46,118 nucleotides of DNA from Oceanospirillales bacterium (GTDB taxonomy: Bacteria; Pseudomonadota; Gammaproteobacteria; Pseudomonadales; Balneatricaceae). The position numbers and the translations under genes were made by a program. This document shows, piece after piece, positions 903 to 43,477 of the stretch; positions within the stretch are counted from its first letter, which is position 1, and each line of letters opens with the position of its first letter. A model generated the notes under the pieces. It searched no databases and was not told the origin of the DNA. It saw only the letters and a program-made list of their open reading frames with translations. The stretch lies in contig JAAEYW010000032.1 in NCBI GenBank assembly GCA_018223185.1, positions 1 through 46,118 of the forward strand, given 5' to 3'.

Positions 903-1003
903 AGCATGGATTCAGTTAAATGTAACAGATTGTTGCGTGTCTGCATTCTGGTATAGTGTGCGGCACGTTATTGAACCACCCACTATTAAATCACCGAGTT
1001 GTA

Positions 1004-26208: not shown

Positions 26209-26722
26209 GTTGTTCTCCCGTGGGCGCCTGCCTTATTGGCAGATATTTACCGCCCATTATAATTATTCTGTAATGGGACTGGGTTTGTTTCCCCCAGTTT
26301 ACTACATTGCTGCTTCATAATAGAAACAGCTTTATCTGTGATTTCTGATTCATCGCTGATCAGTATTGTCAGGCATATTTGCGGATCAGTTACCTCTGAC
26401 AATCGAGCGATCGCAGCAAATGCTTTTAGAGTACTGTGCTCAGATTCAGATGACTTTATATAAATTAACTCTGATTCTATTACACCGTTAGTACGGGTTG
26501 AGGGGTATTCTACTATGCATGTAAAAAAGTAGTACCAAAGTACTGTTATTGTTAAGGTTATGATTCAATATATAATTTTTTGTCTGTGATAAGATCTGCG
26601 TCAATATTGTTCGGGTTTATATGTGGGATCTATACGTATTATATGTCCCGCGCCAGACGTTACAGTGAGTCGACCCGTGTTAAAGAGTTCAGTTGTTTTT
26701 GTAAGTGCGTTGGATCTGATCA
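26209..26722. promoter_or_regulatory. 514-base divergent regulatory region
   Basis: This AT-rich region separates the response regulator from the diguanylate cyclase. It contains an inverted repeat (ACTGGG near 26278 and CCCAGT near 26293) close to the regulator start, a partial motif GTTAGTACGGG near 26490 and the perfect palindrome at 26531-26544. A 67-codon plus-strand reading frame at 26580-26783 overlaps the cyclase start and shows no family features, so no gene is called. Confidence 0.5.
26531..26544. promoter_or_regulatory. Alcohol-regulon motif, site A
   Basis: AGTAC-CAAA-GTACT is a perfect inverted repeat with a 4-base spacer, about 180 bases before the cyclase start and 320 bases before the response-regulator start. 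It matches four other sites in this window. Function as an operator is inferred. Confidence 0.55.
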
Positions 26723-28843
26723 GTGTATAAAGATAATAATTCACCCCGTTTCCCTGTCCGGCTGTTGTGGGGCATCTCTCTGATTATACTTCTGCTGCTG
26801 CTATTGCAGACCGTCTATATCATTTTCAGTACCAGAACTCAGCATCAGCAGCAGCTCGCTTCACTGCAAGAGGAGCTGATGCAGGAGCAGCGAAAACGGC
26901 TGAAGGCTGAGATGAATGATGCTGAGCATATGATCGGACAGATGTTTACCGAAGCAACCGATCTGCTCAAGCGTGAGTCGCGAACCCAGACCCTTCAGGC
27001 GTTGCAGCTGATGAACTCGCTTTACCAGCGTTACCATCAACAACTCAGTGAAGCTGAGATGAAAAAACTGCTGGTGGAAGCGCTCCGGGATATCCGTTTT
27101 TTTGATGGCCGGGGCTACTACTTTATCGATCAGATGGACGGTACGGCAGTCCTGCTACCTACAGTCCCTCAGCTTGAGGGCAGGTCTTTGCTCGATAATC
27201 AGGATGATACCGGGCATTACATTATGCAGGGCCTGATCGATGCCGTATCGAATTCTCAACAGGCAGGGTTTTCCTATTACCGCTGGTATGCTCCCGATGA
27301 TGACCAGCAGATGAAAGACAAGATCGCCTATGCAGCGGTATTTGAACCCTACAACTGGATTGTTGGTACTGGTGATTATCTCTATCGGTTTGAAAATGAT
27401 CTGAAGCCTCACATCTATCATTACATCCGTAATATCCGTTTTGGACATACCGGTTATTTTGCGCTTTCCGACAGCGATGGGACTTTGCTGGCCAGTGGAG
27501 TAACTCCGGAACTGGAGGGTGTTAACTTTATTGATGATGCGGATCCCAGGGTCCGTGACAGTGCTGAGAGTATGCTGGACACTGCCCGCAAAGGCGGAGG
27601 CTACCAGTTTTATGACTGGTATAAGTCCGGGGAGACAGATCTCAGTAAAAAATTATCCCTCATTAATCCTCTGAACAATCGGGAATGGATTCTGATCGCA
27701 GGTATATTTCAGGATGAGTTGAATGAGCTGTTATCGGCGCAGAAGCAGGCCCTTGATAGCGAGCTTCGCAATGTTGCTTTCAATCAGTTGATAGCACTGA
27801 CAATGATTGGCTTGCTTGCCCTGCTAATTACCCTGATATACAGCCGCTGGTTAAAGTCACGTTTTAAACGCTACGAAGATGATATTAACCGACAGCAGGC
27901 GATGCTGCGTGAAACTGCTGACTCTCTTAAACTCAGTAGTCTGATCTTCGAGTCAGCGTATGAGGGGGTTATTGTCAGCGATGCAAATAACCGTATTCTG
28001 CAGGTGAACAAGGCCTTTACACGAATAACAGGATACTCTGAAGATGAAGTCATCGGAAAATCGCCATCGGTGCTCTCTTCCGGTCTTCAGGATGACGTTT
28101 TTTATCAGCGCATGTGGCAGCGTCTGGCCGTTGCGGGGATCTGGCGTGGAGAGATCTGGAATAAGCGTAAGAATGATGAGATTTATCCTGAATGGCTTTC
28201 GATCAGTCTGAATAAAGATGCCAGTGGTAATGTGCTGAACTATATCGCTATCTTTTATGATATTACCCAGCGTAAAGAGCTGGAGCAGCAACTGCGAAGT
28301 ATGGCGGAAACGGATCCGCTTACCGGGCTGGCAAACCGACGCAGTTTAATGGACAGCCTGAATCGTGATATGTCTTTCAAAGAACGCTATCACTCTCCCG
28401 GCATTGCCCTTTTCTTCGTCGATCTTGATCATTTTAAGTGGATCAATGACAGCTATGGTCATGATGTGGGTGACTCTGTATTGATGGAAGTCGCGAATAG
28501 ATTGATTAGCTGTTTGCGGGAATCGGATCTTGCGTGCAGGGTAGGCGGTGATGAGTTTGTTATTCTGTGTAAATATAAACTGGAAGACGGTGATCAGCAG
28601 CTGCGGCAGCTTAGCAGCCGGCTGCTCGATCAACTTATGAAACCATTTAGTTTTGCGGAGATTGAAATTGATATCAGTTGTAGCATCGGTGTTGCCGTGC
28701 ATCACAAGGGTGATGATGCTTTCGGCCTGATGAAATCAGCAGACCAGGCACTCTACGAGGCCAAGCATCAGGGACGTGGCCGGGCTGTTTTCTCAGATAC
28801 CCTTAACGCTTCCCCATCCCCTGCTGAGGCTGAAACCCCCTGA
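26723..28843 (+). CDS. Double-Cache PAS diguanylate cyclase
   Basis: The 706-residue protein starts at GTG 26723, with a weak GGA upstream. A membrane segment (about 14-36) is followed by a periplasmic sensory region made of two Cache_2-like units (about 45-345, each with a GRGYYF/GHTGYFAL-type core), a second membrane segment (about 347-368), a PAS domain (about 410-530) and a GGDEF domain. The active motif GGDEF lies at about residues 607-611, preceded by RESD as an intact RxxD inhibitory site. It should make c-di-GMP in response to a small periplasmic ligand. Its placement and upstream palindrome suggest that the ligand or the control is tied to alcohol oxidation. A paralogue starts at 45320. 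Confidence 0.88.
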   Translation: MYKDNNSPRFPVRLLWGISLIILLLLLLQTVYIIFSTRTQHQQQLASLQEELMQEQRKRLKAEMNDAEHMIGQMFTEATDLLKRESRTQTLQALQLMNSLYQRYHQQLSEAEMKKLLVEALRDIRFFDGRGYYFIDQMDGTAVLLPTVPQLEGRSLLDNQDDTGHYIMQGLIDAVSNSQQAGFSYYRWYAPDDDQQMKDKIAYAAVFEPYNWIVGTGDYLYRFENDLKPHIYHYIRNIRFGHTGYFALSDSDGTLLASGVTPELEGVNFIDDADPRVRDSAESMLDTARKGGGYQFYDWYKSGETDLSKKLSLINPLNNREWILIAGIFQDELNELLSAQKQALDSELRNVAFNQLIALTMIGLLALLITLIYSRWLKSRFKRYEDDINRQQAMLRETADSLKLSSLIFESAYEGVIVSDANNRILQVNKAFTRITGYSEDEVIGKSPSVLSSGLQDDVFYQRMWQRLAVAGIWRGEIWNKRKNDEIYPEWLSISLNKDASGNVLNYIAIFYDITQRKELEQQLRSMAETDPLTGLANRRSLMDSLNRDMSFKERYHSPGIALFFVDLDHFKWINDSYGHDVGDSVLMEVANRLISCLRESDLACRVGGDEFVILCKYKLEDGDQQLRQLSSRLLDQLMKPFSFAEIEIDISCSIGVAVHHKGDDAFGLMKSADQALYEAKHQGRGRAVFSDTLNASPSPAEAETP

Positions 28844-29594
28844 CGGCCAGAATAGAGGCGACCAGTGTTACCGCAATAACAATACTCAGTGCCTGGCCAT
28901 TCACTTGCTGGTAAAGCGCAAAGCGTATCAGTTCAACGCCATGACTGAACGGATTCCAGGCACAGATCCAATAGAGCCACTCACTCGCTTCACGCATTTT
29001 CCATAGTGGGTAGAGCGCTGAAGAGAGAAAAAACATTGGAAAGATGACAAAATTCATCACCCCGGCAAAATTTTCCAGCTGTCTGATCCTCGCTGAGATA
29101 AATAATCCGATCGCACTCAGCATCATTGCCACCAGCAGGAAGGCTGGCAGTGCGGTCAGATAGCCGGTCACAGGGGCTTCCACGCCCCATAACCAGGCAA
29201 TAATCAGAAATCCATAGACCTGTAGCAGTGATATCAGCGAGGTCGCCATCAGTTTTGACAACAGTAAAAAAGGCCTTGGCATAGGGCTGACCAGCAGCAC
29301 CCGCATACTGCCCATCTCCCGGTCATACACCATCGACAGCGAGCTTTGCATACCATTAAAGAGAATAATCATGGCGCACAGGCCCGGCACTATATACACC
29401 TCGTAGGTGATATAGGTTTCGTAGGGCTCGATGATGGCGATACCCAGCGCCGCGCGGAAGCCGGAAGCAAACACCACCAGCCATAACAAGGGGCGCACCA
29501 GCGCACTAAAAAAGCGGGAGCGCTGTTGTACAAAGCGTAACAGTTCCCGCTGTAGCAAACCGTTAAAGCAGATCAGTGCATCGCGAAGAGTCAT
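28803..29594 (-). CDS. pedC: ABC-2 type permease, PedC-like (PQQ alcohol dehydrogenase-associated)
   Basis: The 263-residue protein has six predicted membrane segments and the ABC-2 permease pattern (MYDREMGSMRVLLVSPMPRPFLLLSKL, given here only as a landmark of the family; NPFSHGVELIRFALY near the C-terminus). Its start overlaps the upstream ATPase stop by 4 bp. It belongs to the permease group found with PQQ alcohol dehydrogenases, such as PedC of Pseudomonas putida, proposed to act in efflux or sensing of alcohol intermediates. Its 3' end overlaps the convergent diguanylate cyclase gene by 41 bp. Direction of transport is not proven. Confidence 0.82.
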   Translation of the reverse strand: MTLRDALICFNGLLQRELLRFVQQRSRFFSALVRPLLWLVVFASGFRAALGIAIIEPYETYITYEVYIVPGLCAMIILFNGMQSSLSMVYDREMGSMRVLLVSPMPRPFLLLSKLMATSLISLLQVYGFLIIAWLWGVEAPVTGYLTALPAFLLVAMMLSAIGLFISARIRQLENFAGVMNFVIFPMFFLSSALYPLWKMREASEWLYWICAWNPFSHGVELIRFALYQQVNGQALSIVIAVTLVASILAVRGFQPQQGMGKR

Positions 29595-30316
29595 TCTGTC
29601 GTTCCTGTAAGAGATCTGAACAGGGTGCTGATATCCGCGCTATTATGCTGCTGACATAACCGGCTGGCAGTATCGCTGGCGAGAATCCGTCCCCGGAAAA
29701 GGATGGTGACAGGGTCATCGTTGTGCACTTCTTCAATCAGGTGGGTGGCCCAGAGTACGGTTAACTGCTGTTGATCGCACAACTCGCGAATATGCCGGTT
29801 GAGCGATTCCCGGGTGGCGGGATCAAGCCCGGCACTGGGTTCGTCCAGTAGCAGAATTTCTGGTTTATGCAGCAGTGCCCGGGCAATCTCTACCCGCCGC
29901 CGGTGACCACCGTTGAGGGTGCGGACTTTGTCGTGTAGTCGTCCGCTGAGGTCAAACCGGGCCAGCTCTTCAGTGATACGGGGCAGGGCCTGTCGCTTAG
30001 ATATGCCATGCAGGGCGGCGTGATAGTAAAGATTTTGCGCAATACTCAGATCCAGATCCAGCGTACTTTGCTGAAAGACCACCCCGAGTTTACGCATCAC
30101 TTCTGCCGGATGATGGGCGATGCTGCGTCCGGCAATGCTGATCTCGCCATTCTGCAGGGCGTAAAGGCGTGTTAGCAGTGCAAACAGGGTGCTTTTGCCC
30201 GCGCCGTTGGGCCCCAGCAGGGCGTTAAAGCAGCCTTCCTGAAGTGATAGATTGATATCCTGAAGGGCATTCAGCGAGCCATAACTGAAGCTGAGATTGC
30301 GGATTTGAATGCTCAT
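29591..30316 (-). CDS. ABC transporter ATPase, PQQ catabolism-associated
   Basis: The 241-residue ATPase has Walker A (GPNGAGKST), a Q-loop (VVFQQSTLD), a signature motif altered to LNGGHRRR in place of LSGGQ, Walker B (ILLLDEPSAGLD) and the switch His in WATHLIEE. The divergent signature, typical of ABC-2 exporters of this group, should still be functional. It pairs with the permease encoded immediately downstream (4-bp overlap) and follows the beta-propeller gene by 14 bases. It corresponds to the ATPase family recorded only with PQQ-dependent catabolic loci. Confidence 0.86.
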   Translation of the reverse strand: MSIQIRNLSFSYGSLNALQDINLSLQEGCFNALLGPNGAGKSTLFALLTRLYALQNGEISIAGRSIAHHPAEVMRKLGVVFQQSTLDLDLSIAQNLYYHAALHGISKRQALPRITEELARFDLSGRLHDKVRTLNGGHRRRVEIARALLHKPEILLLDEPSAGLDPATRESLNRHIRELCDQQQLTVLWATHLIEEVHNDDPVTILFRGRILASDTASRLCQQHNSADISTLFRSLTGTTE

Positions 30317-30330
30317 AATAGTTTACCGGA

Positions 30331-31314
30331 TCAGGGTTTGATCCGGATTCCCCACGGATATCGCCCCACTTTAATCGATTTGATTACCTTCATCCGGTTG
30401 ATATCAATCACCGAAACGTCGCCACTGATTCCGTTGGTTGTCAGCAGGCGGGACTGGTCGCTATTAAACTCCATGTGCCAGACTCTTCGGCCGACTAACA
30501 GATAATCCAGTACTTCATAGGTTTTAGCATCGACAACGGCCACATGATTGGCAGGCCCCAGCGCAACAAACGCATATTTACCATCATCGGTCAGCTTGAT
30601 ACCCACTGGCTGGATTTTATCAGGGTGGATACCCCGTATTTGAAAGTTAAGTTTATGGCTTATCTGACGGTTTGAGACATCGATTATCGAGACGGTGCCG
30701 CCTATTTCAGAGGAGGCCCAGACGATGCTGCCATCCTTGTTGAATTCGACATGGCGTGGGCGCTGGTCCACCAGAGTGTTATCCACCACCTCGTGAGTTC
30801 TGGTATCAATCCAGTGAACCATGTTGGTGGTTTCACTGGTGCTCAAAGCCCACCGGCCATCCGGACTAACCGCCATCCCTTCAGGCTCCACTCCTACATC
30901 TATCTGGGAGATAACTTCCTGGGTTTTCACATCCACAACGGTAACCACCGCATCATTCTCGTTAGCGATATAGAGGTGCCGGTCATCCGGGTGCAGCGCA
31001 AATTGCTCGGGGTCTTCACCCGAAGGCAGTTGGGCGATAATGCGGTTATCTTTCAGATCCATCACCTGCACCGTGTCTGAGTCACTGGCACAGATGTATA
31101 ACCGGGTTTTGTCGTGGCTGAAAATGATTCCCCGTGGGCGCTCGCCGACATTGATGGTGCCGGTAACTTCCAGAGTATCAAGGTTGATAATGGAGATCGT
31201 ATCGTCCTTCTCATTCGACACATAGGCCGTTTCAGCCATCGCCTGATTCCACAGCATTCCAGTGCTCAGCAGTGAGAGTGTCAGTGGCGGGAGTATTTTG
31301 GTTAAACATCTCAT
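30331..31314 (-). CDS. Periplasmic YVTN beta-propeller protein, PQQ catabolism-associated
   Basis: From ATG 31314 (AGGA eight bases upstream) the product has a signal peptide ending about WNQAMA|ETA and seven repeats of the YVTN/YNCE kind, with cores such as AYVSNEKDDTISIINLDTL and RHLYIANENDAVVTVVDV. An upstream in-frame start at 31365 would overlap the preceding gene and spoil the signal peptide. Such propellers accompany PQQ alcohol dehydrogenase clusters; they may bind a quinoprotein, cytochrome or ligand, but no activity is established. It is the second gene of the four-gene ABC operon. Confidence 0.85.
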   Translation of the reverse strand: MRCLTKILPPLTLSLLSTGMLWNQAMAETAYVSNEKDDTISIINLDTLEVTGTINVGERPRGIIFSHDKTRLYICASDSDTVQVMDLKDNRIIAQLPSGEDPEQFALHPDDRHLYIANENDAVVTVVDVKTQEVISQIDVGVEPEGMAVSPDGRWALSTSETTNMVHWIDTRTHEVVDNTLVDQRPRHVEFNKDGSIVWASSEIGGTVSIIDVSNRQISHKLNFQIRGIHPDKIQPVGIKLTDDGKYAFVALGPANHVAVVDAKTYEVLDYLLVGRRVWHMEFNSDQSRLLTTNGISGDVSVIDINRMKVIKSIKVGRYPWGIRIKP

Positions 31315-31351
31315 AGAACAGATCCTGTTATTTTTTTTATTCCGGGTGGTG

Positions 31352-32545
31352 CTAATTCGAGGCATATGACACGTTGCAGCTTGATTCCGGTTGATCGAAT
31401 CCCAGCGTATCGAGATCCGTTACCGGATGTAGAAACCCTTCCAGTGGTGGCTGAGAGACCAGCGAACGGGGTTGTACCAGAGGTATCGGCTGTCGCAACT
31501 GACCGCTCCAGCTGCGATAATTCAGTTTGCGGCCTTTAAAGGCTGCCAGTTGAAATTTATCAGAACTGATAAAGTTAAACAGAGTTTCAGCATCATCCGA
31601 TTTTGTTTGTGTAACTGCTTCTCCTATGGTTCTGATAGCGGCCCAGGCAGCATAATCCTTGCTGTTCATCCAGCGCTGGTGCTGATCTTCAAAGCGGCTT
31701 TGCAGTTGTGCCGCTCCCCATTGTTCTACGACCCGGTGCCAGGCAACGGGTGTCAGCCCCTGCGTTCCGGCAACCGGTCTGGGGTACCAGGTGTTGTACA
31801 TCACATATTCGCCAAAATCGCCCCGTTCATCGGCCACCACAACCAGGTCATATTCATCGGTCTGGGTAAACAGCGGCAGCTCCCGCTGCGCGGTGCGGCG
31901 CAGGTCGGTATCAAAGCTCCAGGTTTTTTCTTCAACAATTTTCAGGCCAAAACGCTTAGCACTGCGTTTCAGTGCCTCAGCATAAGCAAGATCTTCAGGC
32001 TGAGACCCTTTTATCAGTAACCAGCGATGCAGGCGCCTGGCATTGCTCCATTGTCCAAGAGCGTCTGTCAGCATTGCCCGGCTTGGCAGGGTGTGAAGGG
32101 TATTAGCAAGGCACTCGCGGGTGCGCAGCTCATCGGCGTAGCTGCCGGCATTAAACACTACCGCCCCATAGGATTTAGCCAGCTGGCTGAGTGCGATCAA
32201 TTGTTTTTTTGGCAGGTCTGTAACCAGTAATCTGAGACCGTCATCAAGCCACTGTTGAGCGATCTGACTGACCTGCTCAGGCGTTTCAGCCAACTCTGAT
32301 ATGAGGGTGTAGTGCTGCTTCAGAAAGCGGCCGGTGGTGTTGTTGTCTTTCAGACCCAGGCGGGCACCGCTGAATCCCCGGTCTTCCGGTTCCGGTATCA
32401 GATTCGAAAGTACCGGTCCCTGATGAGGGTGGTAGGCGATATAGCCAACCCGGATCTCCTGTGCACTGGCCAGAGCATAAAAACTCCATATCGAGCCTGT
32501 CAGAATCCATAGAAGTGATTTAAGTGTGCGCATATGTAAACTCAT
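31352..32545 (-). CDS. Periplasmic ABC binding protein, PQQ alcohol dehydrogenase system
   Basis: The 397-residue protein has a signal peptide (ends about ALASAQ, near residue 29) and a type I periplasmic-binding fold like leucine-binding proteins, with an N-terminal IRVGYIAYHPHQGP strand and the LVTDLPKKQLIALSQLAKSY region. It fits the substrate-binding family seen only beside PQQ alcohol dehydrogenases. It leads the operon that continues with the propeller, ATPase and permease. As the permease is of the ABC-2 export type, the binding protein may have a sensory or scavenging role rather than import. A shared motif site lies about 70-85 bases before its start. Confidence 0.82.
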   Translation of the reverse strand: MSLHMRTLKSLLWILTGSIWSFYALASAQEIRVGYIAYHPHQGPVLSNLIPEPEDRGFSGARLGLKDNNTTGRFLKQHYTLISELAETPEQVSQIAQQWLDDGLRLLVTDLPKKQLIALSQLAKSYGAVVFNAGSYADELRTRECLANTLHTLPSRAMLTDALGQWSNARRLHRWLLIKGSQPEDLAYAEALKRSAKRFGLKIVEEKTWSFDTDLRRTAQRELPLFTQTDEYDLVVVADERGDFGEYVMYNTWYPRPVAGTQGLTPVAWHRVVEQWGAAQLQSRFEDQHQRWMNSKDYAAWAAIRTIGEAVTQTKSDDAETLFNFISSDKFQLAAFKGRKLNYRSWSGQLRQPIPLVQPRSLVSQPPLEGFLHPVTDLDTLGFDQPESSCNVSYASN

Positions 32546-32611
32546 CTGTCAGATCTCTTTCAGGATAGGTGGTACTGAAGGAGGGTTAAATATGCGGAAA
32601 GTACCGATCAA

Positions 32612-32629
32612 TTAGTTCTGAAGTACTAT
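32612..32629. promoter_or_regulatory. Alcohol-regulon motif, site E
   Basis: TTAGTTC-TGAA-GTACTAT on the plus strand (ATAGTACTTCAGAACTAA on the minus strand) matches 14 of 18 positions of the site before the aldehyde dehydrogenase gene. It lies between the divergent binding-protein and cupredoxin-like genes and could control both. Confidence 0.45.
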
Positions 32630-32691
32630 TTTTAAAAAACATCATCCGCTTAGCATTGATGTACATAATCATAACAGGTGAGGACAAAGCG

Positions 32692-33156
32692 ATGATGCGA
32701 GTAATATTAACGGGATATTCACGGGTGATTTTGAGTGCAATAGCCGTCATCTGTGTGACCGTTGCCATGATGTTCAGTGGCAAGCTGCTGGCTCAGGGAG
32801 ATCTCACCCGAAAACCCCAGAAATTGCCCGAACTGCTGATGGGCAGTGAAGAGAGTGACTATAGCCTGTCGGAGAAAAAATATGAACTGGAGACAGGCAA
32901 GGCCTATCGGCTGGAGATCGTTGCCAGCGGTTTGAAACCCTACGCGCTTCGTGCACCTGAGTTTTTTACTTCGATCTATCTGCGCAAAATTGAAGCGGGG
33001 GGGATGGAGATTAAGGCGGTTAGTCTGAACGAGTTGGAATTTGAAGATGAGGGTAGTGCCGAGATCTTTTTTGTGCCGGTTAAGCCGGGCACCTTTGAAT
33101 TTTATATTGCGGGGCTGCGGCATAAAGGGATGGAAGGGGTGTTTGTTGTAAAGTAA
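32692..33156 (+). CDS. Cupredoxin-fold periplasmic protein without the copper cysteine
   Basis: The start at 32692 is supported by GAGGA seven bases upstream. The 154-residue product has an uncleaved or cleavable N-terminal membrane segment (about residues 10-33, ending KLLAQ) and a beta-sandwich region ending in a cupredoxin-like C-terminus (PGTFEFYIAGLRHKGMEGVFVV). In true type 1 copper proteins a Cys follows FYx; here it is replaced by Ile/Ala, while His and Met remain. The mature region appears to have no Cys at all, so redox copper binding is unlikely. It may be a structural or assembly partner in the periplasmic alcohol system. Function is unknown. Confidence 0.72.
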   Translation: MMRVILTGYSRVILSAIAVICVTVAMMFSGKLLAQGDLTRKPQKLPELLMGSEESDYSLSEKKYELETGKAYRLEIVASGLKPYALRAPEFFTSIYLRKIEAGGMEIKAVSLNELEFEDEGSAEIFFVPVKPGTFEFYIAGLRHKGMEGVFVVK

Positions 33157-33239
33157 GCATTGTTAATGCAGGGCTTAAAAAATACGGGCCTTATAAAATA
33201 CAGGCCTGGAATCAGTCCGTTGAATAACCGGGGAAGGCT

Positions 33240-34058: not shown

Positions 34059-34486
34059 TTCTTTTTGTAAGCCTTTTGTCTGAGCTATACCGGTCTTTGA
34101 CCGGCTTGCTTTGGGTCGGCTTTAATGCCGCGATCTGATCTGTTTCTGCCCTTGTGATAGACCTGATAAGCAGGTCTTTAACAGAGTAAGGTTCTCTGGT
34201 TTAAAAAATATCCTCCCTTTATTTATGGGCTTAAAAAGATGTTATGAAAACTCATAAGCAGTCTTTTTATGGTCTAACCTATTGATATTAAATATCTAAC
34301 TTTTTGTGTTTTATTCAGTGCTAGTACCAAGGTACTAGTTTTTCAGCACCAAAGCAGAATTCTTGAGCTTTACCTTTGCGTTTTATTATCTCACCTATAG
34401 CGATCTCCCGGTCTTTTGTGAAGTGTGTCCAAAAGTAAGACGGGACGATCCGGGATTTTAAAACTCTAATAAGACTGGTGATGTAA
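34059..34486. promoter_or_regulatory. 428-base leader region of the cytochrome c-550 gene
   Basis: The region starts with a stem CCGGTC-TTT-GACCGG (34090-34104), probably part of the 3' end of the Sel1 gene, and a short ACCTG/CAGGT stem near 34161-34175 followed by CTTTA. The middle is AT-rich. It contains the 18-bp palindrome at 34321-34338, about 150 bases before the cytochrome start. No gene is seen. Confidence 0.5.
34321..34338. promoter_or_regulatory. Alcohol-regulon motif, site B
   Basis: CTAGTAC-CAAG-GTACTAG is a perfect 7-bp inverted repeat with a 4-base spacer. The adjoining bases (TTTTTCAGCACCAAAG) also match those next to the site before the aldehyde dehydrogenase gene; 28 of 38 positions agree overall. 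This is the best example of the motif in the window. Confidence 0.65.
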
Positions 34487-34930
34487 ATGAGAAAGCCAAC
34501 TAAAACTCTGGGTGCTGTTGCTGCCGGGACTCTTTCTATGCTGCTGTCGGTACAGGTAATGGCTCATGGTGATGTTACACCTCAGGCGATGGATACTCAT
34601 GAGCTGAAACAACTGGGTGATGAGTGGCTGGATGAAAACCCTTATGGCGAAGACTACGAAAAACATAGCACTGCGGTTGAGATAGGTTTTTCAGCGTATA
34701 CCCAGAACTGTGCACGTTGTCATGGACTGGAAGCAATTTCCGGCGGAATCGCGCCTGATCTGCGTTACCTTGAGCCGGGTATTGAGGGTGATGAGTGGTT
34801 TAAATACCGGGTTGTTAACGGTGCTGTACGTGACGGTCGTGTATATATGCCGAAAATGGCTGATTATCTGAGTCAGGAAGCATTGTGGGCGATTCGCACA
34901 TGGCTGGTAACTGTAGCAACCACTGAGTAA
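34487..34930 (+). CDS. pedF: Cytochrome c-550, PedF-like electron acceptor
   Basis: The 147-residue protein has a signal peptide ending VMA|HGD (about residue 26) and one haem c motif, CARCH (Cys75, Cys78, His79), with the distal Met in VYMPKMADYL. This is the c-550 type that accepts electrons from quinoprotein alcohol dehydrogenases; the sequence fits the PedF/ExaB-like subgroup. It lies 12 bases before a MoxJ-like gene and heads an operon that includes it. A conserved palindrome stands upstream. Electrons would pass on to a terminal oxidase encoded elsewhere. Confidence 0.86.
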   Translation: MRKPTKTLGAVAAGTLSMLLSVQVMAHGDVTPQAMDTHELKQLGDEWLDENPYGEDYEKHSTAVEIGFSAYTQNCARCHGLEAISGGIAPDLRYLEPGIEGDEWFKYRVVNGAVRDGRVYMPKMADYLSQEALWAIRTWLVTVATTE

Positions 34931-34942
34931 TCGGAGTTAACG

Positions 34943-35848: not shown

Positions 35849-36019
35849 CAGCGTGCGTTGCAGTGAGATCTTCCTGAAAGGGATGTCTCCGGATCTGGCC
35901 TCAGAGGGTTATCCGCGGGCAATATTTCTCTGTCAGTCAGTGCGATCTTTTTTAAAGAACTCTCTGTATTCAAAGGGTTCTGTGTCAGCGATCTTCATGT
36001 CAGAGAGGGAGGCTTTCTC

Positions 36020-36304
36020 ATGATCACTGCAATGCCCGGGCTGACGCCGGTACTGAAAGCTGACTGCAAACTCTATTTTGACGGTCAGCATAACCGCTGG
36101 GTGCTAAAAGCACCGCGGCAGCTTATCTTTCCCGACCGACTGACCCTGATCACCCTACAGGCATGTGATGGCAGTTGCAGTGGTGCTCAGATTGCCCGCT
36201 CACTGGCATCATTCTCTGAACTTAAGAATGTTACTGAATACGATGTGCTTGATGTGCTGGAGGAGTTTGAGCGGCGTGGATTTATATCGGTTTTGAGTGC
36301 CTGA
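36020..36304 (+). CDS. pqqD: Stand-alone PqqD-like peptide chaperone
   Basis: The 94-residue protein matches PqqD: RWVLKAPRQLIFPDRLTLITLQACDG is given as its landmark only in part, since the core is the RWVLKAP strand followed by a winged-helix-like region with the ACDG turn and a C-terminal DVLDVLEEFERRGFI helix. GGAGG eight bases upstream supports ATG 36020. PqqD presents the precursor peptide PqqA to the radical SAM enzyme PqqE. No pqqA, B, C or E is found in this window, so PqqD is separated from the rest of the pathway, or this copy has another role. Confidence 0.76.
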   Translation: MITAMPGLTPVLKADCKLYFDGQHNRWVLKAPRQLIFPDRLTLITLQACDGSCSGAQIARSLASFSELKNVTEYDVLDVLEEFERRGFISVLSA

Positions 36305-36333
36305 GCTGAATAATAACGGCAGCAGGGCAGGTA

Positions 36334-36351
36334 GTAGTACTAAGTAAGTAT
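36334..36351. promoter_or_regulatory. Alcohol-regulon motif, site C (degenerate)
   Basis: GTAGTAC-TAAG-TAAGTAT keeps the left half-site and spacer of the motif, with a poor right half, about 130 bases before the dehydrogenase start. It is weaker than sites A and B. Confidence 0.4.
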
Positions 36352-36479
36352 AAAACTCATTCCCCCGGTCAATTGTTGGAATGGGTGCAAATTTACAGAA
36401 TGTCATCAGGTCTGGAATCTTTGCTCAGATCTGTTGAGAGTCAGAAAATAAGAACAATCCTTAATCAAGGAGCAATGCA

Positions 36480-38243
36480 ATGAAGAAGTTCAGCGGCAGT
36501 TTTGCTGTGACAGCGCTGGTTGCAGCAATGTCTGTATCGGGCGTGAGCCAGGCAAATGTAACCGATAAAGATATTCTGCAGGATCAGAAGACAGTAGAAG
36601 ATGTGGTATCCAACGGTCTGGGCCCGCGCGGACAGCGCTATAGTCCGCTGGATAAGATCAATACTGACACTGTAAAAGATATGCGTCCTGTCTGGTCGTT
36701 CTCTTTTGGTGGAGAGAAACAACGGGGTCAGGAATCCCAGCCAATGGTTAAAGATGGCGTGATGTATGTCACCGCTTCTTACTCCCGGGTATTCGCAGTG
36801 GATACGAAAACCGGTGAAGAGTTGTGGGAATACAATGCCCGTCTGCCGGATGGCATCATGCCATGTTGTGACGTTATTAACCGGGGTGTCGCCCTGTATG
36901 ATGACCTGGTGATCTTCGGTACTCTGGATGCCAAACTGGTAGCACTGGATGCCAAGACGGGTAAGGTGAAGTGGAAAAAGACCGTTGCTGATTACAAAGA
37001 GGGCTACTCAATTACAGCCGCTCCTATGATCGTTAATGGTAAAGTCATTACCGGTGTATCTGGTGGCGAATTCGGTATAGTGGGTAAAGCTGAAGCCTAC
37101 GATGCCAAGACTGGTAAGATCCTCTGGACCCGCCCGACTGTTGAAGGTCATATGGGTTACATCTGGAAAGATGGTAAGAAAGTTGAAAACGGTATTTCCG
37201 GTGGGAAAGCGGGTCAGACCTGGCCTGGTGACCTGTGGAAGAGCGGTGGCGCGGCTACATGGCTGGGCGGCACCTACGATCCGGATACCAACTCACTGTT
37301 TATCGGCACCGGTAACCCTGCACCATGGAACTCCCATATGCGGCCGGGCGACAACCTGTTCTCCTCATCCCGTCTGGCAATCGACCCGGATACCGGAAAG
37401 ATTAAATGGCATTTCCAGACCACGCCACATGATGGCTGGGATTACGATGGTGTAAACGAGCTGATCGCATTCGATTACCAGGAAGGCGGCAAAACGGTTA
37501 AAGCGGCTGCAACCGCTGACCGTAACGGCTTTATGTATGTCCTTAACCGTACTAATGGTGACTTTATCCGCGGCTTCCCGTTCGTTGATGAGATCAGCTG
37601 GGCAAAAGGACTGGATAAGAAGGGTCGTCCTATCTACAACGAAGAGATGCGTCCGGGCAATCCAAGTGCGTCTGAAGATGGTAAAAAAGGTTCATCTGTT
37701 CACGCTGTACCAGCCTTCCTGGGTGGTAAGAACTGGATGCCTATGGCTTACAGCCAGGATACAGAGCTGTTCTATGTTCCCTCTAACGAGTGGGGCATGG
37801 ATATCTGGAATGAGCCAACGGCCTATAAAAAAGGCGCAGCTTACCTGGGTGCCGGCTTTACTATCAAGCCTCTGACTGAAGATCACATCGGTGTGCTTCG
37901 GGCGATGGATCCGAAAACCGGTAAAGAGGTATGGCGCTACCAGAACTTCTCTCCACTGTGGGGTGGTGTTCTGACTACCGCAGGCAACCTGGTATTTATC
38001 GGTACACCTGAGGGTTATCTGAAAGGCTTCGATGCCAAGACTGGCGAAGTTAAATACCAGTTCAATACCGGTTCCGGTATCGTCGGTTCACCAATCACCT
38101 GGGAACAGGATGGCGAACAGTTCATCTCGGTTGTATCCGGCTGGGGTGGTGCAGTACCACTGTGGGGTGGTGAAGTTGCCAAGCGTATTAAGCATCTGAA
38201 TCAGGGTGGTTCAGTCTGGACTTTCAAACTGCCTAAGTCTTAA
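36480..38243 (+). CDS. pedH: PQQ-dependent alcohol dehydrogenase, lanthanide type (PedH/ExaF-like)
   Basis: The 587-residue precursor has a signal peptide (about residues 1-23) and an eight-bladed propeller of quinoprotein alcohol dehydrogenases. The adjacent cysteines Cys129-Cys130 in [10 protein letters not shown] form the ring disulfide next to PQQ and match the ethanol dehydrogenase (ExaA/PedE/PedH) clade rather than methanol dehydrogenase. The catalytic Asp321 is in WDYDGVNE; the Asp at 323, two residues later, is the marker of lanthanide-dependent enzymes, while calcium types carry Ala or Ser there. It should oxidise primary alcohols and aldehydes in the periplasm, passing electrons to the cytochrome c-550. 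AAGGAGCAATGCA places the ribosome site. Confidence 0.86.
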
Positions 38244-38275
38244 TGCCAGGTAGATTGACTGTCCGATCGTAAGAT

Positions 38276-38311
38276 AAAAAAGGCCGATGCATCTGCATCG
38301 GCCTTTTTTTG
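38276..38311 (+). terminator. Strong intrinsic terminator of the dehydrogenase gene
   Basis: AGGCCGATGC, a 4-base loop and GCATCGGCCT form a 10-bp stem followed by seven T, about 38 bases after the stop. The preceding A-run could also make it work in the opposite direction for rlmJ. Confidence 0.92.
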
Positions 38312-38454
38312 TGCTTTGATACGAGGCCTTTTACAATCAAGGGCACAGAGACATACTGTTTAAAGCTTTTCTCGGTGTGCTCAGTGGCCTCTGTGGTTAA
38401 TCACCGTGTAAGGGGCAGCACGCTTTTATTCCGTTTTCTTTTATTTCGCCCGCT

Positions 38455-39291
38455 TTATTCCGGCACCAGAATATCGCAGCTATAAAACGCTCCTTTACCC
38501 TCATTAAGCGCTTCAACCAGACGGGGCAACAGGTTTTTCATCTGCTCAAACAGAGTCCAGGGCGGGTTAATTACGATCATTCCGGAGGAGGTCATTCCCC
38601 GTTCTGCTGAGTCGGGTTCCAGCCCCAGCTCAAAGCGTTGAATATTGCGTATTCCGCTACTGATAAACAGCTTTTCAAGTTTACGGATACGGTGCCGGTC
38701 CACTACCGGGTACCACAAGGCATACGTTCCGGTGGCAAATTTACGATGGGCGCTTTTGAGTACTTTAAATACCTGGTCGTAATCGCTTTTAATCTCGTAA
38801 GACGGGTCCATCAGCACCAGTGCCCGCCGTGAGGCCGGAGGGAGTAGTGACAGCAACCCTTCGAGACTATCCTGATTCAATACTCTGATCTGACGGTTGT
38901 TGCGGGTATTCTGGCTGAGCAGTTTATAATCGCTCGGGTGTAGCTCATACAGGGTTGCCCGGTCCTGCGGCCGCATAAAGTGGCGGGCGATCAGCGGTGA
39001 GCCGGGATAAAACCTCAGGTTGTCTGCAGGGTTGCAGCTGCGAATGGCAGAAAAATAGCTGGCAAGTGAGGGCCACTCCTCAGGTTTGAGTTTGCCGATT
39101 CCGTTGCTGTATTCACCCAGCTTTTCCGCCTTATCTGACCGCAGGTCGTATAATCCGGCTCCGGCGTGGGTGTCGATATAGTCAAACGGTTTATCTTTTT
39201 TGATCAGGTGCTCGAGAATCTCCGTCAGTACGATATGTTTCAGAAGGTCGGCAAAATTGCCTGCATGAAAAGAGTGTCGATAACTTAGCAA
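38455..39291 (-). CDS. rlmJ: 23S rRNA (adenine(2030)-N6)-methyltransferase RlmJ
   Basis: The 278-residue protein matches RlmJ along its length, starting LSYRHSFHAGNFADLLKHIV and continuing with the SAM-binding region (DYIDTHAGAG). The catalytic motif is DPSYE in VLMDPSYEIK, the family's form of the DPPY motif. The start is a TTG at 39291, chosen because family members begin (M)LSYRHSFHAGN at this point, with AGGAC upstream. It methylates A2030 of 23S rRNA in the large subunit. It is monocistronic and unrelated to its neighbours. Confidence 0.92.
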   Translation of the reverse strand: MLSYRHSFHAGNFADLLKHIVLTEILEHLIKKDKPFDYIDTHAGAGLYDLRSDKAEKLGEYSNGIGKLKPEEWPSLASYFSAIRSCNPADNLRFYPGSPLIARHFMRPQDRATLYELHPSDYKLLSQNTRNNRQIRVLNQDSLEGLLSLLPPASRRALVLMDPSYEIKSDYDQVFKVLKSAHRKFATGTYALWYPVVDRHRIRKLEKLFISSGIRNIQRFELGLEPDSAERGMTSSGMIVINPPWTLFEQMKNLLPRLVEALNEGKGAFYSCDILVPE

Positions 39292-39336
39292 AACGGCGTC
39301 CTGATCAGATTGTTTGGGTTCAGATTATAGCGATGG

Positions 39337-39744
39337 ATGCAGACTATCGGTTTATTCACCGGTCGGGTCAATAGATCCGGTCAATTTTACGTTTTTTCAT
39401 TAACTGTATCCGCAGGTCCAGCCCGGTGCCTTATTGCGTTTCTGGTTATGCTGGCGGTGATCACCCTGAGTGGCATGAAGCTTTATGCAGTCGAAGAGGG
39501 TAAAGGTCCGCAGGCCGGCGAGGGGCAGATGCATCTTGTCAGTCCGGTACTGGCCGGAGAAGACTACGATGAGGATGGTGAACACGGCAACAGTGATGAG
39601 TACTGGAAGGAGATTCATGAGTTTGCCGATAATCTGATGCTGTTGTTAATTCTGTTGCATATTGCTGGCGTAGTGATTTCCAGTCGGATACATAATGAGT
39701 CGCTGGTTAAATCGATGCTGAACGGTTACAAAGAAAAGCGCTGA
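39337..39744 (+). pseudogene. Cytochrome b561 remnant, 5' truncated
   Basis: Only the C-terminal half of a di-haem cytochrome b561 can be read, from about 39410: a membrane segment ending LSGMKLYAVEEGKGP, then an acidic loop, then WKEIHEFADNLMLLLILLHIAGV, whose histidines serve as haem ligands, and a final basic tail. The first two membrane segments are missing, and the 25 codons before them do not resemble the family. The frame is intact, so the loss is a 5' deletion rather than a frameshift. A functional cytochrome is unlikely. Confidence 0.68.
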
Positions 39745-39749
39745 CACGA

Positions 39750-39768
39750 CTCAGCACCCTGTGCTGAG
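39750..39768. terminator. Hairpin after the b561 remnant
   Basis: CTCAGCAC-CCT-GTGCTGAG is a perfect 8-bp stem-loop just after the stop, without a T-run. It is followed, at about 39785-39825, by a pyrimidine-rich microrepeat of the form TTCTGTC/CTCTGTTC. Confidence 0.4.
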
Positions 39769-39860
39769 GTGCACATAACCCGTTTACTGCTTATGTTCTG
39801 TCTTCTGTCCTCTGTTCTTTGTTCTCGGTCGCATGGGCCTTACGTGCTGTGAATAGCCGT

Positions 39861-40757
39861 TTATCCGCCAGGCTGTTCCAGGTGCCGGTGACAGTAGCTG
39901 ATCAGGTGTCGGGTCAGGTTTTTTCCGGTCTCGGTGGCTAAGTTCCAGCTGTGCCAATACAGTGGAACCTCGAGGCTCTGGCCCGGCGCAATCTCAATGA
40001 CGGCACCGGACTCTATGAGTGACTTCATCTGCAGGTCCGGCGCCATGCCCCAGGCGAGTCCGCGTCGTATCAGCTCTGTAAATGCCTCTGAAGAGGGCAC
40101 TCTGTGACGTGGATAGGTCTGTACAGCGGGATAGAACTGGCTGAGGAAGTTATCCTGAAGTTCATCTTTCTCGTTATATTCTACCGCCGGAGCGCTGGTC
40201 AGAGTGTCAGCAGAAACCCCGTTGGGAAAATAGCGTTGAATAAAGCCCGGGCTGGCCAGCGCCAGGTAGCGGCTGATCCCCAGAAACGCGGCATTGCCGC
40301 CCTGCAGAGGTTTGCTGCTGGAACTGATACAGCCGTGAACATCGCCCTGCCGGAGTAACAGGTGGGTCTGATCCTGATCATCCACTCTCAGATCAAGCAA
40401 TATGTCGCTCTGTTCCAGCACCGGTTGCAGCGCGTCCATAAACCAGGTTGCCAGCGTATCCGCATTCAGCCCGATCGTTAACTTGGTAAAACCTTTCTCC
40501 CGGGCGTTGCCCAGTGTTTTCAGAAGTTCGCTCTGTAGCAGGGTGACCTGGTGGTAATGGCGATGTAACTGTTCTCCGGCTGACGTCAGCCGCAACGGTT
40601 GACTGCGCACCAGCAACAGCTGGCCGGCGGATTCTTCCAGCTGTCTGATCCGTTGTGAAATGGCTGACTGGGTCAGAAATAACCGTTTTGCTGCACGGTC
40701 AAAACTCTGCTCTTCCATGACAGTGGCCAGAGCCTGAAGCTGGCGATAATCAAACAT
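39861..40757 (-). CDS. argP: LysR-family regulator ArgP
   Basis: The 298-residue protein has an N-terminal LysR helix-turn-helix (DYRQLQALATVMEEQSFDRA is the family landmark; SQRIRQLEE is the recognition region) and a C-terminal co-inducer domain. It is divergent from an ArgO-like exporter. ArgP (IciA, LysG) activates the exporter gene in response to arginine or lysine. The 195-base intergenic region is AT-rich, with several ATTA boxes, as expected for ArgP sites. Confidence 0.86.
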   Translation of the reverse strand: MFDYRQLQALATVMEEQSFDRAAKRLFLTQSAISQRIRQLEESAGQLLLVRSQPLRLTSAGEQLHRHYHQVTLLQSELLKTLGNAREKGFTKLTIGLNADTLATWFMDALQPVLEQSDILLDLRVDDQDQTHLLLRQGDVHGCISSSSKPLQGGNAAFLGISRYLALASPGFIQRYFPNGVSADTLTSAPAVEYNEKDELQDNFLSQFYPAVQTYPRHRVPSSEAFTELIRRGLAWGMAPDLQMKSLIESGAVIEIAPGQSLEVPLYWHSWNLATETGKNLTRHLISYCHRHLEQPGG

Positions 40758-40864
40758 AGCGGTTCACCGAATAAGTAGGTTGCAGATAAGTTGGTCACAG
40801 AGAGGTTAGCGTGTCACAGAGCGTTAATCAGGATGAGTGATCAAATATAGCATTATTAATTTTT

Positions 40865-40888
40865 CTAATGAAATATAAATATTATTAG
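40865..40888. promoter_or_regulatory. AT-rich inverted repeat, possible ArgP operator
   Basis: CTAAT and ATTAG are separated by 14 AT-rich bases in the divergent argP-argO interval, about 65-90 bases before argO. ArgP boxes are AT-rich dyads of this kind; the assignment is inferred. Confidence 0.35.
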
Positions 40889-40952
40889 TTTTACTAACCT
40901 GCGCCGGTTTTTTATTCTGCCTGCTCATCGAGTACCAAAGGGAATATAAAGT

Positions 40953-41582
40953 ATGATGACGTCATTCATATCAGCCTCTTTTCTGGCCGGACTGGCCACC
41001 AGTGCCGGACTGATCATGGCTATCGGTGCCCAGAACGCATTTGTTCTGAGCCAGGGGGTGCGCCGCGAATACCACTGGGCGATTGCCGGGGTGTGCAGCC
41101 TGCTTGATGCTGTGCTGATTACCGCGGGCATAGCGGGGATGGGGGTGTTAATAGGTCAGTCGGAGCTGACACTGAAACTAATCAGCTGGGCGGGTGGTGC
41201 ATTCCTGTTGTGGTATGGCGCTAATGCGCTTCGCTCGGCCCTGCGCAGTGAGTCGATGAGCCTGTCCACGAATAACTTTTCCAGTCTTAAGTCAGCGTTG
41301 CTGACCACTCTGGCGCTGAGTTTGCTGAATCCGCATGTCTATCTTGATACCGTGGTATTACTGGGTAGTATTGGGGGGCGCTACCCCGATCAGGAGCGGT
41401 ACTGGTTTGGAGCGGGCGCAGCACTGTTTTCGTTTGTCTGGTTTTTTTCGCTGAGCCTTGGTGCCCGGTGGCTGGCTCCGCTGTTTCGTAAGCCTGTCAG
41501 CTGGCGTATTCTGGATGGACTGGTCTGTCTGATGATGTGGACGCTGGCTGTTTTGTTGCTGAGCGGCAACCTCAGCCCCTGA
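40953..41582 (+). CDS. argO: Basic amino-acid exporter, ArgO/LysE-like
   Basis: The 209-residue membrane protein has six predicted helices and the LysE/ArgO opening GLATSAGLIMAIGAQNAFVLSQ, RREYHWAIAGVC, and ALSLLNPHVYLDTVVLLG. AAGGGA lies about nine bases before the ATG. It exports arginine or lysine out of the cell and is controlled by the divergent argP product. This ArgO-type sequence is distinct from the RhtB-like copy at 10558. Confidence 0.87.
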   Translation: MMTSFISASFLAGLATSAGLIMAIGAQNAFVLSQGVRREYHWAIAGVCSLLDAVLITAGIAGMGVLIGQSELTLKLISWAGGAFLLWYGANALRSALRSESMSLSTNNFSSLKSALLTTLALSLLNPHVYLDTVVLLGSIGGRYPDQERYWFGAGAALFSFVWFFSLSLGARWLAPLFRKPVSWRILDGLVCLMMWTLAVLLLSGNLSP

Positions 41583-41593
41583 TATTCAGGGGC
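41575..41593. terminator. Hairpin between convergent argO and receptor genes
   Basis: GCCCCTGA-TAT-TCAGGGGC is a perfect 8-bp stem over the argO stop codon, without a T-run downstream. It may act as a bidirectional 3' end. Confidence 0.45.
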
Positions 41594-41620
41594 ATCGGGT
41601 CAGAAGTATGATTTGATTCT

Positions 41621-43180
41621 TTATTGTTTCGTCCGGTTGACGATCTGAGACAGGTCTGCAACCAGCCCGTCGAGATTAACTATAGCCTGGTTGGTATTGT
41701 TAATTGATTCCTTATTGCTGTCAGATATATCCCGGATAGAGATAATGCTTTTGCTGAGGCTTTCTGCTGTTTCGTTCTGTTCATCTGCCGCCACAGCAAT
41801 CTGCTGGCTCTGATCTGATATCAGGTCTAATGACTGGCTCAGCTGATCAAACGCTTGTCCGGCAATTTCGGCCCGGCTGATGCTGTCTTTTGCCTGACCA
41901 TGGGTTTTGCTCATGCTATCTGCTGTATTACGAACCTGTTTTTGCACGGATCCGATACTGGATTTGATCTGCTCAGTCGCCTGTTGGGTGCGTTTTGCCA
42001 GCTCCCGGACTTCATCGGCGACCACCGCAAAGCCACGTCCGTTATCGCCGGCTCTGGCCGCTTCAATGGCAGCGTTCAGCGCTAACAGATTGGTTTGATT
42101 GGCGATATCATTGATCATAGTCGTGATATGACCGATCTCTTCAGTTTGTTGATGTAGCTGTTCTGACAGTTCGGAAGCCTGTTCCACCTCGCCAGACAAC
42201 AGTTCAATGGTTTGCAGCATATCATTGATGGTGGTTCTGCCATTCTGGGCATCCATCGCCGCCTGATGGGTTACATCTGAGGTTCGTGAGGTGTTTTCTG
42301 CAACATTATGGGAAGAGGATGCCATCTCGGTACTGGCAGAGGCCAGCATGTCGCTTTCCAGATTCTGCTGTTCAATCCCGACGGTGGTCTGGCTGAGGCT
42401 CTGATGAGTAACAGCCATGACCTCTCTGAGAGTCTTTATCGCATCTTCCACTCGCCCGGTGACGGTATGTATTCTGGCTTCAAGCAGTCGAATGGCAAGA
42501 TTGAATGCACCAACTTCATCCATCCGTCCTGCGATGGCCCGCTGAGAAAGGGGATTGTCATAAATCTTCAGCGCCTGATTCAGGCTGTTCTTCAGGGGGG
42601 TTAACTGCCAATAGGCCAGGGCAGTAAATGCGCTTGTCAGCAGGCCCGATAGCAGCAGTCTTACCGGTGTATCAAGCGGGCTGACCCCGACAAGTGTTAC
42701 GGCCAGTAAACCGGAAACAACCGTTGCGAGAACACGGTGACTCAGGTGAGTGCGGGATAGTGATAACCGTTTTGGACTTTTATTAACCGTGTCATACAGA
42801 GCCTGAGCCTGTCGTTTTATCTCGTCGGGTAGTCTGCCGCGTACGGATTGATAGCCAGTTTTTTTTCCATGGTGATCATATTGTGGAGTGACATAAGCCA
42901 GAACCCAGTAGTAATCGCCGTTTTTACAACGGTTTTTCACCGCGCCCAGCCATGGCTTGTCGGCATTAAGGTTGGTCCACAGGTCGGCAAAAGCTGCGGC
43001 CGGCATATCGGGATGGCGGACAATATTGTGGGGCTGGCCCACAAGTTCTTCTCGGCTATAACCCGAAATATCAATGAAATCCTGATTTGCATAGGTGATG
43101 CATCCCGACAGGGAAGTAGTGGAAATTAAACGGCTGGCTTCATCATAATTTCGCTCTTTACCGTGTGCATTGTCAGTCAT
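41621..43180 (-). CDS. PAS-containing methyl-accepting protein, Aer-like
   Basis: The 519-residue receptor begins with a cytoplasmic PAS domain (about residues 15-125, with [22 protein letters not shown], whose RHPDMP is typical of FAD-binding Aer), then two close membrane segments (about 150-195), a HAMP-like linker and a signalling domain with tip [19 protein letters not shown] and [18 protein letters not shown]. coli Aer senses redox state through FAD and drives aerotaxis. AAGGA eight bases upstream supports the start. In this context it may follow respiratory electron flow. Confidence 0.9.
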
Positions 43181-43349
43181 TTAAATATCCTTGCAAAATC
43201 ATTTTCTAAATGCGCAATACGCCCATTGTGCATTTCAGCTTAGCGTATACGGGCCAGAATAGTGCAGGCCAGATTGAATTGTATGTTGATTATCAGCGTG
43301 TTGCTCAGGCTTTATCCTCAAACTGGCAATTGAATCATACGATTTGAAA

Positions 43350-43367
43350 CTAGTACTAAATAACTAA
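43350..43367. promoter_or_regulatory. Alcohol-regulon motif, site D
   Basis: CTAGTAC-TAAA-TAACTAA followed by ATTTTCAGTGCCAAGG matches the cytochrome c-550 upstream site at 28 of 38 positions. The right half is degenerate. It stands about 110 bases before the aldehyde dehydrogenase start, in the 297-base interval otherwise without recognisable features. Confidence 0.55.
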
Positions 43368-43477
43368 ATTTTCAGTGCCAAGGGAGCATAGGTCAGAACA
43401 GGGGTTACTGACTATTATGGAAGAGTAGTCAAACAGCCCGCAAAGTGCGGTGTATAACAAAAAGAGAGGCTTGGACA

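Follow-up and report, generated by a model that had tools for sequence, protein, structure and literature searches.

Five intergenic sites in a ped/exa cluster

The window, by which we mean the whole stretch of 46,118 nucleotides analysed here (contig JAAEYW010000032.1 of the Oceanospirillales bacterium assembly GCA_018223185.1), carries a ped/exa cluster: the genes for NosP, a NahK/ErcS'-like kinase, an AgmR-like regulator, a diguanylate cyclase, the PedA-C ABC operon, the cytochrome c-550 PedF (c550 below), a quinoprotein dehydrogenase and the aldehyde dehydrogenase ExaC (Table 1). The PedF, ExaC and PedA-C families and the pyrroloquinoline quinone (PQQ) alcohol dehydrogenase are all matched above curated cut-offs. 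The named relatives of the dehydrogenase are Amphritea species (91-97%) and, as judged from sequence, the genus is Amphritea. A sequence-only reading of the window had proposed that five sites sharing the palindrome AGTAC-N4-GTACT define an alcohol-oxidation regulon: A between agmR and the cyclase gene, C before the ABC operon, B before c550, D before the dehydrogenase gene and E before exaC. The regulon idea is right, and better supported than that reading could know, while the operator as written is wrong: the sites carry a tandem element, described below, whose probable reader is the AgmR-like response regulator.

A mismatch search and the gene positions confirmed all five sites where they had been placed, each of them intergenic. 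The palindrome is exact at 26531-26544 (site A) and at 34323-34336 (site B, within an 18-mer at 34321-34338), and has one mismatch at 32614-32627 (C), three at 36336-36349 (D) and two at 43352-43365 (E); site B overlaps no stop-to-stop frame of at least 100 codons and site A is overlapped by a 105-codon frame carrying no listed gene. As a palindrome it does not exceed chance: with up to three mismatches it is matched 101 times in the window against 109.1 (standard deviation 10.0) in shuffles, and the genome scan that had been put forward to check it would have failed with this pattern, which gives 74 sites at up to one mismatch against 104 for a control pattern. The whole genome holds six exact copies, the four outside the window lying within stop-to-stop frames of 247-698 codons. 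In relatives, the palindrome is intact in 11 of 249 promoters, or 1 of 73 after redundancy removal; across 24 genomes it is kept at c550 in 8/21, all of the same genus, and at the dehydrogenase, exaC and ABC genes in 0/24, 0/10 and 0/11. Without enrichment in window or genome, and unconserved beyond the c550 promoters of the genus, AGTAC-N4-GTACT was rejected as the operator. What does exceed chance is the sites as conserved operators, clearly so for B, D and E, and by positional conservation for A and C.

A tandem box at a fixed distance from a -10-like hexamer

The cluster was taken from 23 related genomes, making 24 dehydrogenase-bearing genomes with our own, and together with 80 named loci this gave 249 upstream regions (104 of the dehydrogenase, 89 of c550 and 56 of exaC; 55 from the 24 genomes and 194 from the named loci). 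The two sets overlap in at least five genomes, hence a reduction to 73 non-redundant promoters, drawn from the regions scoring at least 8.9, a threshold reached by 208 of the 249 regions and by 4.4% of shuffled regions. What is said below of the boxes, of their 22-bp period and -10 spacing in the window and of their conservation is computed. Read by footprinting, the upstream regions show a conserved core TACYAA and a weaker right arm; core plus flanks form an imperfect 7-2-7 dyad TASTACY-AA-RGNASTA, two heptamers around AA spanning 16 bp, in which a mean of 4.0 (dehydrogenase), 4.1 (c550) and 3.4 (exaC) of the seven pairs are complementary among the 73 promoters.

By position, a second box stands 22 bp downstream of the first at all five window sites, and the palindrome first marked at site A is the second box of the pair there. 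A long match including the block TTTTCAG-N2-CCAA, which the sequence-only reading had reported between its sites B and D, does exist: it joins the sites at 34321 and 43350 (c550 and aldehyde dehydrogenase) and not the one at 36334, so that a label slipped if those letters follow the order of its list, and the block belongs to the second box copy, 22 bp downstream. When 38 offsets are compared with matrices trained on the other two genes, 22 comes out highest for c550 (z 3.7) and for exaC (z 3.9). A -10-like hexamer lies 58-60 bp past the first TAC at each window site (Table 1), and in the relatives the best -10-like offset is 58 bp for the dehydrogenase and 59 bp for exaC. The tandem, the fixed -10 spacing and the pqq promoter described below had all been missed at first.

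An independent matrix, built from 69 promoters of which none belongs to the genus, gives the three top places in the window to D, E and B (27.3, 27.3 and 26.9 bits; the best of each of ten shuffled windows scored 7.5-16.6). A profile of 46 positions, R1, was built from 49 sequences of 20 genomes and run on the 4.6-Mb genome to which the window belongs (43 contigs; 150 of 546 first-look candidates scored), where at E ≤10 it returned five places, which are sites A-E, all five being training sequences and site C being weak (E 0.36). Under stricter filters in 41 other genomes, R1 matches 7/8 with the dehydrogenase, six of the seven having supplied training sequences, and 2/33 without it, and these two carry AgmR (92 and 71%); among its 24 matches there, 10 were given as loci and 10/10 lie beside c550, the dehydrogenase or exaC. 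The exact word TASTACYAANDNASTA occurs three times in the genome, at B, D and E. TACYAARKDA alone was set aside as too short for specificity, with 74 genome matches, below the 225 of its reversed control.

The same arrangement precedes the dehydrogenase in Pseudomonas, Stutzerimonas, Neptuniibacter, Marinobacterium and Marinobacter (80 named loci, 78 of them printed), the box of the named Pseudomonas loci being 126-129 bp away from the start of the dehydrogenase, and it also precedes c550 and exaC in many of those named loci. Boxes are poor or have other flanks in Colwellia, Paraglaciecola and Alteromonas, and no box was seen in the Nitrincola and Grimontia loci. Upstream of second dehydrogenases, of the WDFSG type, the best box is the reverse complement of the Pseudomonas c550 box type in 21/31 (a count made by eye), which would fit a single operator shared by the two genes. 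At site C the tandem TACT-N18-TACT recurs in 9 of the 11 genomes whose fetched stretch held the ABC gene, and for site A a box [TCG]ACYAAAGTAC lies within 560 bp upstream of agmR in 10/24 genomes, seven of the genus and three others. Sites B, D and E are secure as a shared element and C is well supported by position; A could serve agmR, the cyclase or both. The claims of one element common to an alcohol-oxidation regulon and of conserved positions in related genomes are both supported.

The pqq and acs promoters

On contig C3, the region ahead of pqqA-pqqB contains a box TAGTTCC-AA-AGTACCA, followed by a TATGAT-like -10. CCAAAGTACCA is kept in 19/21 pqq loci examined (two further pqqB places above cut-off lay outside these 21), and is missing in G008 and in the second copy of G009. 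A weaker first box is seen by eye 22-23 bp upstream, at 23 rather than 22 bp in this genome, whose pqq promoter is not reported by R1, the first box being weak there. Contig C1 of G009 has three pqqB places above the family cut-off, and one of the two examined has no exact CCAAAGTACCA upstream, which suggests that the pqq copies of this genome are under different control.

ErdR, a paralogue of AgmR, adjoins acs on contig C2. Upstream of acs, ACCAATGTCTAATT is found in 18/21 genomes, and in 2/21 (L240 of G031 and L245 of G023) this ErdR-type operator is tandem at 22 bp, the same period as in the alcohol promoters. The right arm GTC(T/G)AAT of ACTU, the published motif of CrbR/ErdR, is absent from the window boxes, and acs of the same genome carries GTCTAAT; the form kept at acs is similar to ACTU. 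On this comparison the operators of AgmR and ErdR look like sisters, with a common core and arms that differ.

The candidate binder

The window regulator matches PF00072 (REC) and PF00196 (LuxR-type helix-turn-helix, HTH) above gathering scores and fails the NCBIfam ErdR model NF041830 (185 bits against a cut-off of 390). An AgmR orthologue (73-100%; 73-98% in the other 23) is found in 24/24 dehydrogenase genomes, and AgmR is 77-79% identical over its full length to regulators in seven Pseudomonas loci, of which two share a contig (17 of the 80 named loci gave a match at E 1e-20). Four genomes of the same genus with an ErdR-level match and no AgmR (G001, G002, G003 and G012) have no alcohol-type module. 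NosP-NahK adjoin the window AgmR, as in the Pseudomonas order (PMC12997753). For P. putida, activation of catabolic genes by PedR1 has been reported to be direct and not solely through PedR2 (2026; PMC13390443). The boxes are therefore probably read by the window AgmR/ErbR/PedR1, which had already been named as the obvious candidate and remains the best one.

Neighbouring genes

The coordinates of genes and boxes are collected in Table 1. The dehydrogenase, the genome's only strong quinoprotein-dehydrogenase match, carries the metal site HDGWDYDG at about residue 320; WD[FY]DG is present in 75 of the 80 named relatives (five were unmatched by the expression) and WDFSG in the 31 second dehydrogenases. 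We take the HDGWDYDG signature to suggest the lanthanide (PedH) type. A dehydrogenase of probable lanthanide type stands here in a genome without a PedR2-like regulator at E 1e-30. The kinase scores below the cut-off of the full NahK model (1229 against 1500). A second dCache reading frame (45290-46099) lies near the contig end, so that with the diguanylate cyclase dCache proteins flank the cluster; this pair and the adjoining NosP-NahK hint at a cyclic-di-GMP link to alcohol oxidation. In G020 (L087) about 100 bp separate the agmR box from the start of agmR, and a PilZ protein (932-1279, minus strand; PF07238, 53.1 bits, cut-off 22.5) replaces the cyclase beside agmR; the layout in G035 is similar by eye. 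Upstream of site D, a 94-codon frame (36020-36304, plus strand) matches NCBIfam PqqD over its length below cut-off (29.1 against 46 bits, E 6.9e-7) and no Pfam family, and may encode a second, diverged PqqD-like protein. The small cupredoxin-like gene divergent from the ABC operon (32656-33156) gave no Pfam or NCBIfam match at the thresholds used.

Table 1. Genes of the cluster, boxes and promoter-like hexamers in the window
Feature	Position	Strand	Remarks
NosP (FIST domains), nitric-oxide-sensing	21658..22830	+	NosP equivalog above cut-off
NahK/ErcS'-like hybrid histidine kinase	22827..25424	+	near_NosP_CTERM 552.6, cut-off 400
agmR/erbR/pedR1-like response regulator	25540..26208	-	REC and LuxR-type HTH; candidate binder
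Site A box 1 TTCTACTATGCATGTA	26508..26523	+	22 bp upstream of box 2; co-conserved in 6 further genomes of the genus
Site A box 2 TAGTACCAAAGTACTG	26530..26545	+	between agmR and diguanylate cyclase gene
Site A -10-like TATAAT	26571..26576	+	60 bp from first TAC, facing diguanylate cyclase gene
dCache-PAS-GGDEF diguanylate cyclase	26723..28843	+	GGDEF motif intact
PedC-PedB-PedA2-PedA1-type ABC operon	28803..32545	-	TIGR03861, TIGR03864, TIGR03866, TIGR03863 above cut-off
Site C -10-like TATCCT	32562..32567	-	58 bp from first TAC
Site C box 2 CGGTACTTTCCGCATA	32591..32606	-	22 bp downstream on minus strand
Site C box 1 TAGTACTTCAGAACTA	32613..32628	-	facing ABC (PedA1-type) operon
Site B box 1 TAGTACCAAGGTACTA	34322..34337	+	upstream of cytochrome c-550 PedF
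Site B box 2 CAGCACCAAAGCAGAA	34344..34359	+	22 bp downstream of box 1
Site B -10-like TATTAT	34384..34389	+	59 bp from first TAC
Cytochrome c-550 PedF	34487..34930	+	TIGR04494 above cut-off
Site D box 1 TAGTACTAAGTAAGTA	36335..36350	+	upstream of quinoprotein dehydrogenase
Site D box 2 TCATTCCCCCGGTCAA	36357..36372	+	degenerate, weakest second copy
Site D -35-like TTGTTG	36373..36378	+	same place in many relatives, by reading sequences
Site D -10-like CAGAAT	36396..36401	+	58 bp from first TAC
Quinoprotein alcohol dehydrogenase	36480..38243	+	TIGR03075
Site E box 1 TAGTACTAAATAACTA	43351..43366	+	upstream of aldehyde dehydrogenase ExaC
Site E box 2 CAGTGCCAAGGGAGCA	43373..43388	+	22 bp after box 1
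Site E -10-like TATTAT	43413..43418	+	59 bp from first TAC
Acetaldehyde dehydrogenase ExaC	43478..44998	+	NF050026 above cut-off; start taken at ATG 43478

Discussion

We propose, with a probability of about 0.77, that the response regulator AgmR (ErbR/PedR1) uses the five sites as tandem operators. Each operator would consist of two imperfect 16-bp dyads TASTACY-AA-RGNASTA with the left half better conserved, the second box lying 22 bp, or two helical turns, downstream and ending beside the -35 region, ahead of the -10-like hexamer 58-60 bp past the first TAC. Bound to both boxes on the same helical face, dimers of phosphorylated AgmR would lie immediately ahead of the -35 and from there activate sigma-70 RNA polymerase. 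The predicted targets are the dehydrogenase, cytochrome c-550, the acetaldehyde dehydrogenase, the PedA-C ABC operon, the agmR/diguanylate-cyclase intergenic region and, outside the window, the pqqA operon. The roles given here to AgmR, that is binding, phosphorylation and activation, are drawn from family knowledge and from work on Pseudomonas (PMC12997753, PMC13390443, PMC9927353, PMC8402216).

Several results weigh against this proposal. Below threshold are 41 of the 249 upstream regions, including those of Nitrincola, Grimontia and some Alteromonas loci (nine exaC regions among the 41 score 8.5), and no box of the site A type was seen upstream of agmR in 14/24 genomes. For the dehydrogenase, the offset of 22 comes only second (z 2.0), behind 11 (z 2.3), and the second copy is poor, with C[CT]A[AT] at +22 in 1/29; for c550, the best -10-like offset in relatives is 30, inside box 2 (z 3.9), and 59 comes second (z 2.0). 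By the independent matrix, sites A (10.8 as tandem, 12.8 as single box) and C (8.9 as single box; tandem outside the top 12) fall within the shuffled range, and the seed used to locate the training boxes had been written with the genus promoters already in view. At up to one mismatch, TASTACYAANDNASTA is rarer (14) than its reversed control (60). As for the regulator, G054 has the dehydrogenase and AgmR and no R1 match, and G024 (72%), G036 (64%), G026 and G040 (both 58%) encode an AgmR-like protein with neither dehydrogenase nor R1 match. The recognition helix of ErdR is also nearly identical to that of AgmR (SEATIKAHVTAILRKL in the comparison), making cross-binding between the two possible.

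This last resemblance bears on the idea, which we consider unlikely, that the boxes are ACTU-type operators of ErdR/CrbR and the alcohol genes belong to the MxtR/ErdR acetate regulon. The genome does encode ErdR (C2:11455-12066), 48% identical to AgmR, the published ACTU motif has the same left arm TACTACC-AA (PMC5715377), and the ErdR-type site at acs is likewise tandem at 22 bp in G023 and G031; yet acs retains its distinct form in 18/21 genomes of the lineage, reading GTC at a place where GTA, TAA or GRA prevails in the alcohol boxes, the four genomes with an ErdR-level match and no AgmR are without an alcohol-type module, and the fifteen promoters reported as ErdR targets by AIDmut-Seq in P. 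aeruginosa include acsA and not ercS or agmR (PMC9927353). Less probable still is a different reader, either PedR2/ExaE, known from Pseudomonas as a LuxR regulator linked to lanthanides, or another regulator. The promoters of these dehydrogenases are indeed a target of PedR2/ExaE in Pseudomonas (PMC12997753, PMC13390443), but no PedR2-like protein was found at E 1e-30 in the 12 same-genus genomes searched, all of which have the dehydrogenase box, so that the boxes can be explained without it. The recognition helix of PedR2 also differs from that of AgmR, and some further, unlisted regulator is possible. To chance palindromes we give next to no credence: AGTAC-N4-GTACT is indeed unenriched in window and genome, but several families keep the asymmetric tandem box with unchanged spacing, and a matrix without genus training recovers it. 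Chance can be entertained only for individual sites, A or C for instance.

How new is the operator proposed for AgmR? The sequence-only reading knew of no published operator of such form, and this needs amending, because an operator of nearly this form is already in print. ACTU, the motif of CrbR/ErdR at acs and actP (Sepulveda and Lupas, 2017; PMC5715377), is an imperfect inverted repeat needed for activation; like the window boxes, it goes with a paralogous LuxR-type response regulator, has the left arm TACTACC-AA and stands directly upstream of a sigma-70 promoter, and a table in that paper gives TACTACCAAAGTCTAAT among predicted ACTU sites. Unlike the window boxes, whose right arm is RGNASTA, it has a AGTCTAAT-like right arm and serves acetate genes, and one repeat is described at the acs promoter. 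The Pseudomonas AgmR/ErbR/PedR1 regulon (ped/exa, pqq; PMC12997753) shares the regulator, the NosP-NahK-AgmR neighbourhood and targets including pqq; it is known genetically, agmR since 1991 (a title cited in the same paper), and the window adds a diguanylate cyclase beside agmR, without PedR2. No AgmR/PedR1 operator was found in the literature searched, as excerpted, and in two surveys of P. aeruginosa regulators (PMC8041468, PMC13086498) the gene names sought are absent from the main texts, the part covered. EmaR of Acinetobacter was considered and set aside, its motif being different (PMC9603970).

The tandem operator is a well-defined addition to known response-regulator operators. In the same REC-LuxR family, NarL and NarP use 7-2-7 operators, two heptamer half-sites with TACY-like halves around a 2-bp centre; here the sequence is another, two full dyads stand 22 bp apart and the left half dominates. 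A survey of P. aeruginosa response regulators by DNA affinity purification sequencing (DAP-seq; NAR 2021) may include an ErbR motif.

A more tentative reading, against which we would put the odds, is that AgmR and ErdR have split one ancestral tandem operator into near-orthogonal codes, and that a cyclic-di-GMP gene, too, is driven from agmR by the alcohol code. On that reading the two codes would share the ACC-AA core and the 22-bp period and differ as TASTACC-AA-GGNASTA (alcohol) and ATAGACC-AA-TGTCTAA (acetate), and the cyclic-di-GMP gene would be the diguanylate cyclase in the genus and the PilZ protein in G020. If it is true, alcohol sensing beside NosP-NahK would directly tune cyclic-di-GMP signalling. 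Given a concrete and widely conserved operator, direct AgmR targets can be predicted and then tested by point mutation in P. putida or Amphritea, and biosensor builders gain a defined element; AgmR and ErdR, for their part, form a clean pair in which to study how paralogous response regulators come to use separate DNA codes.

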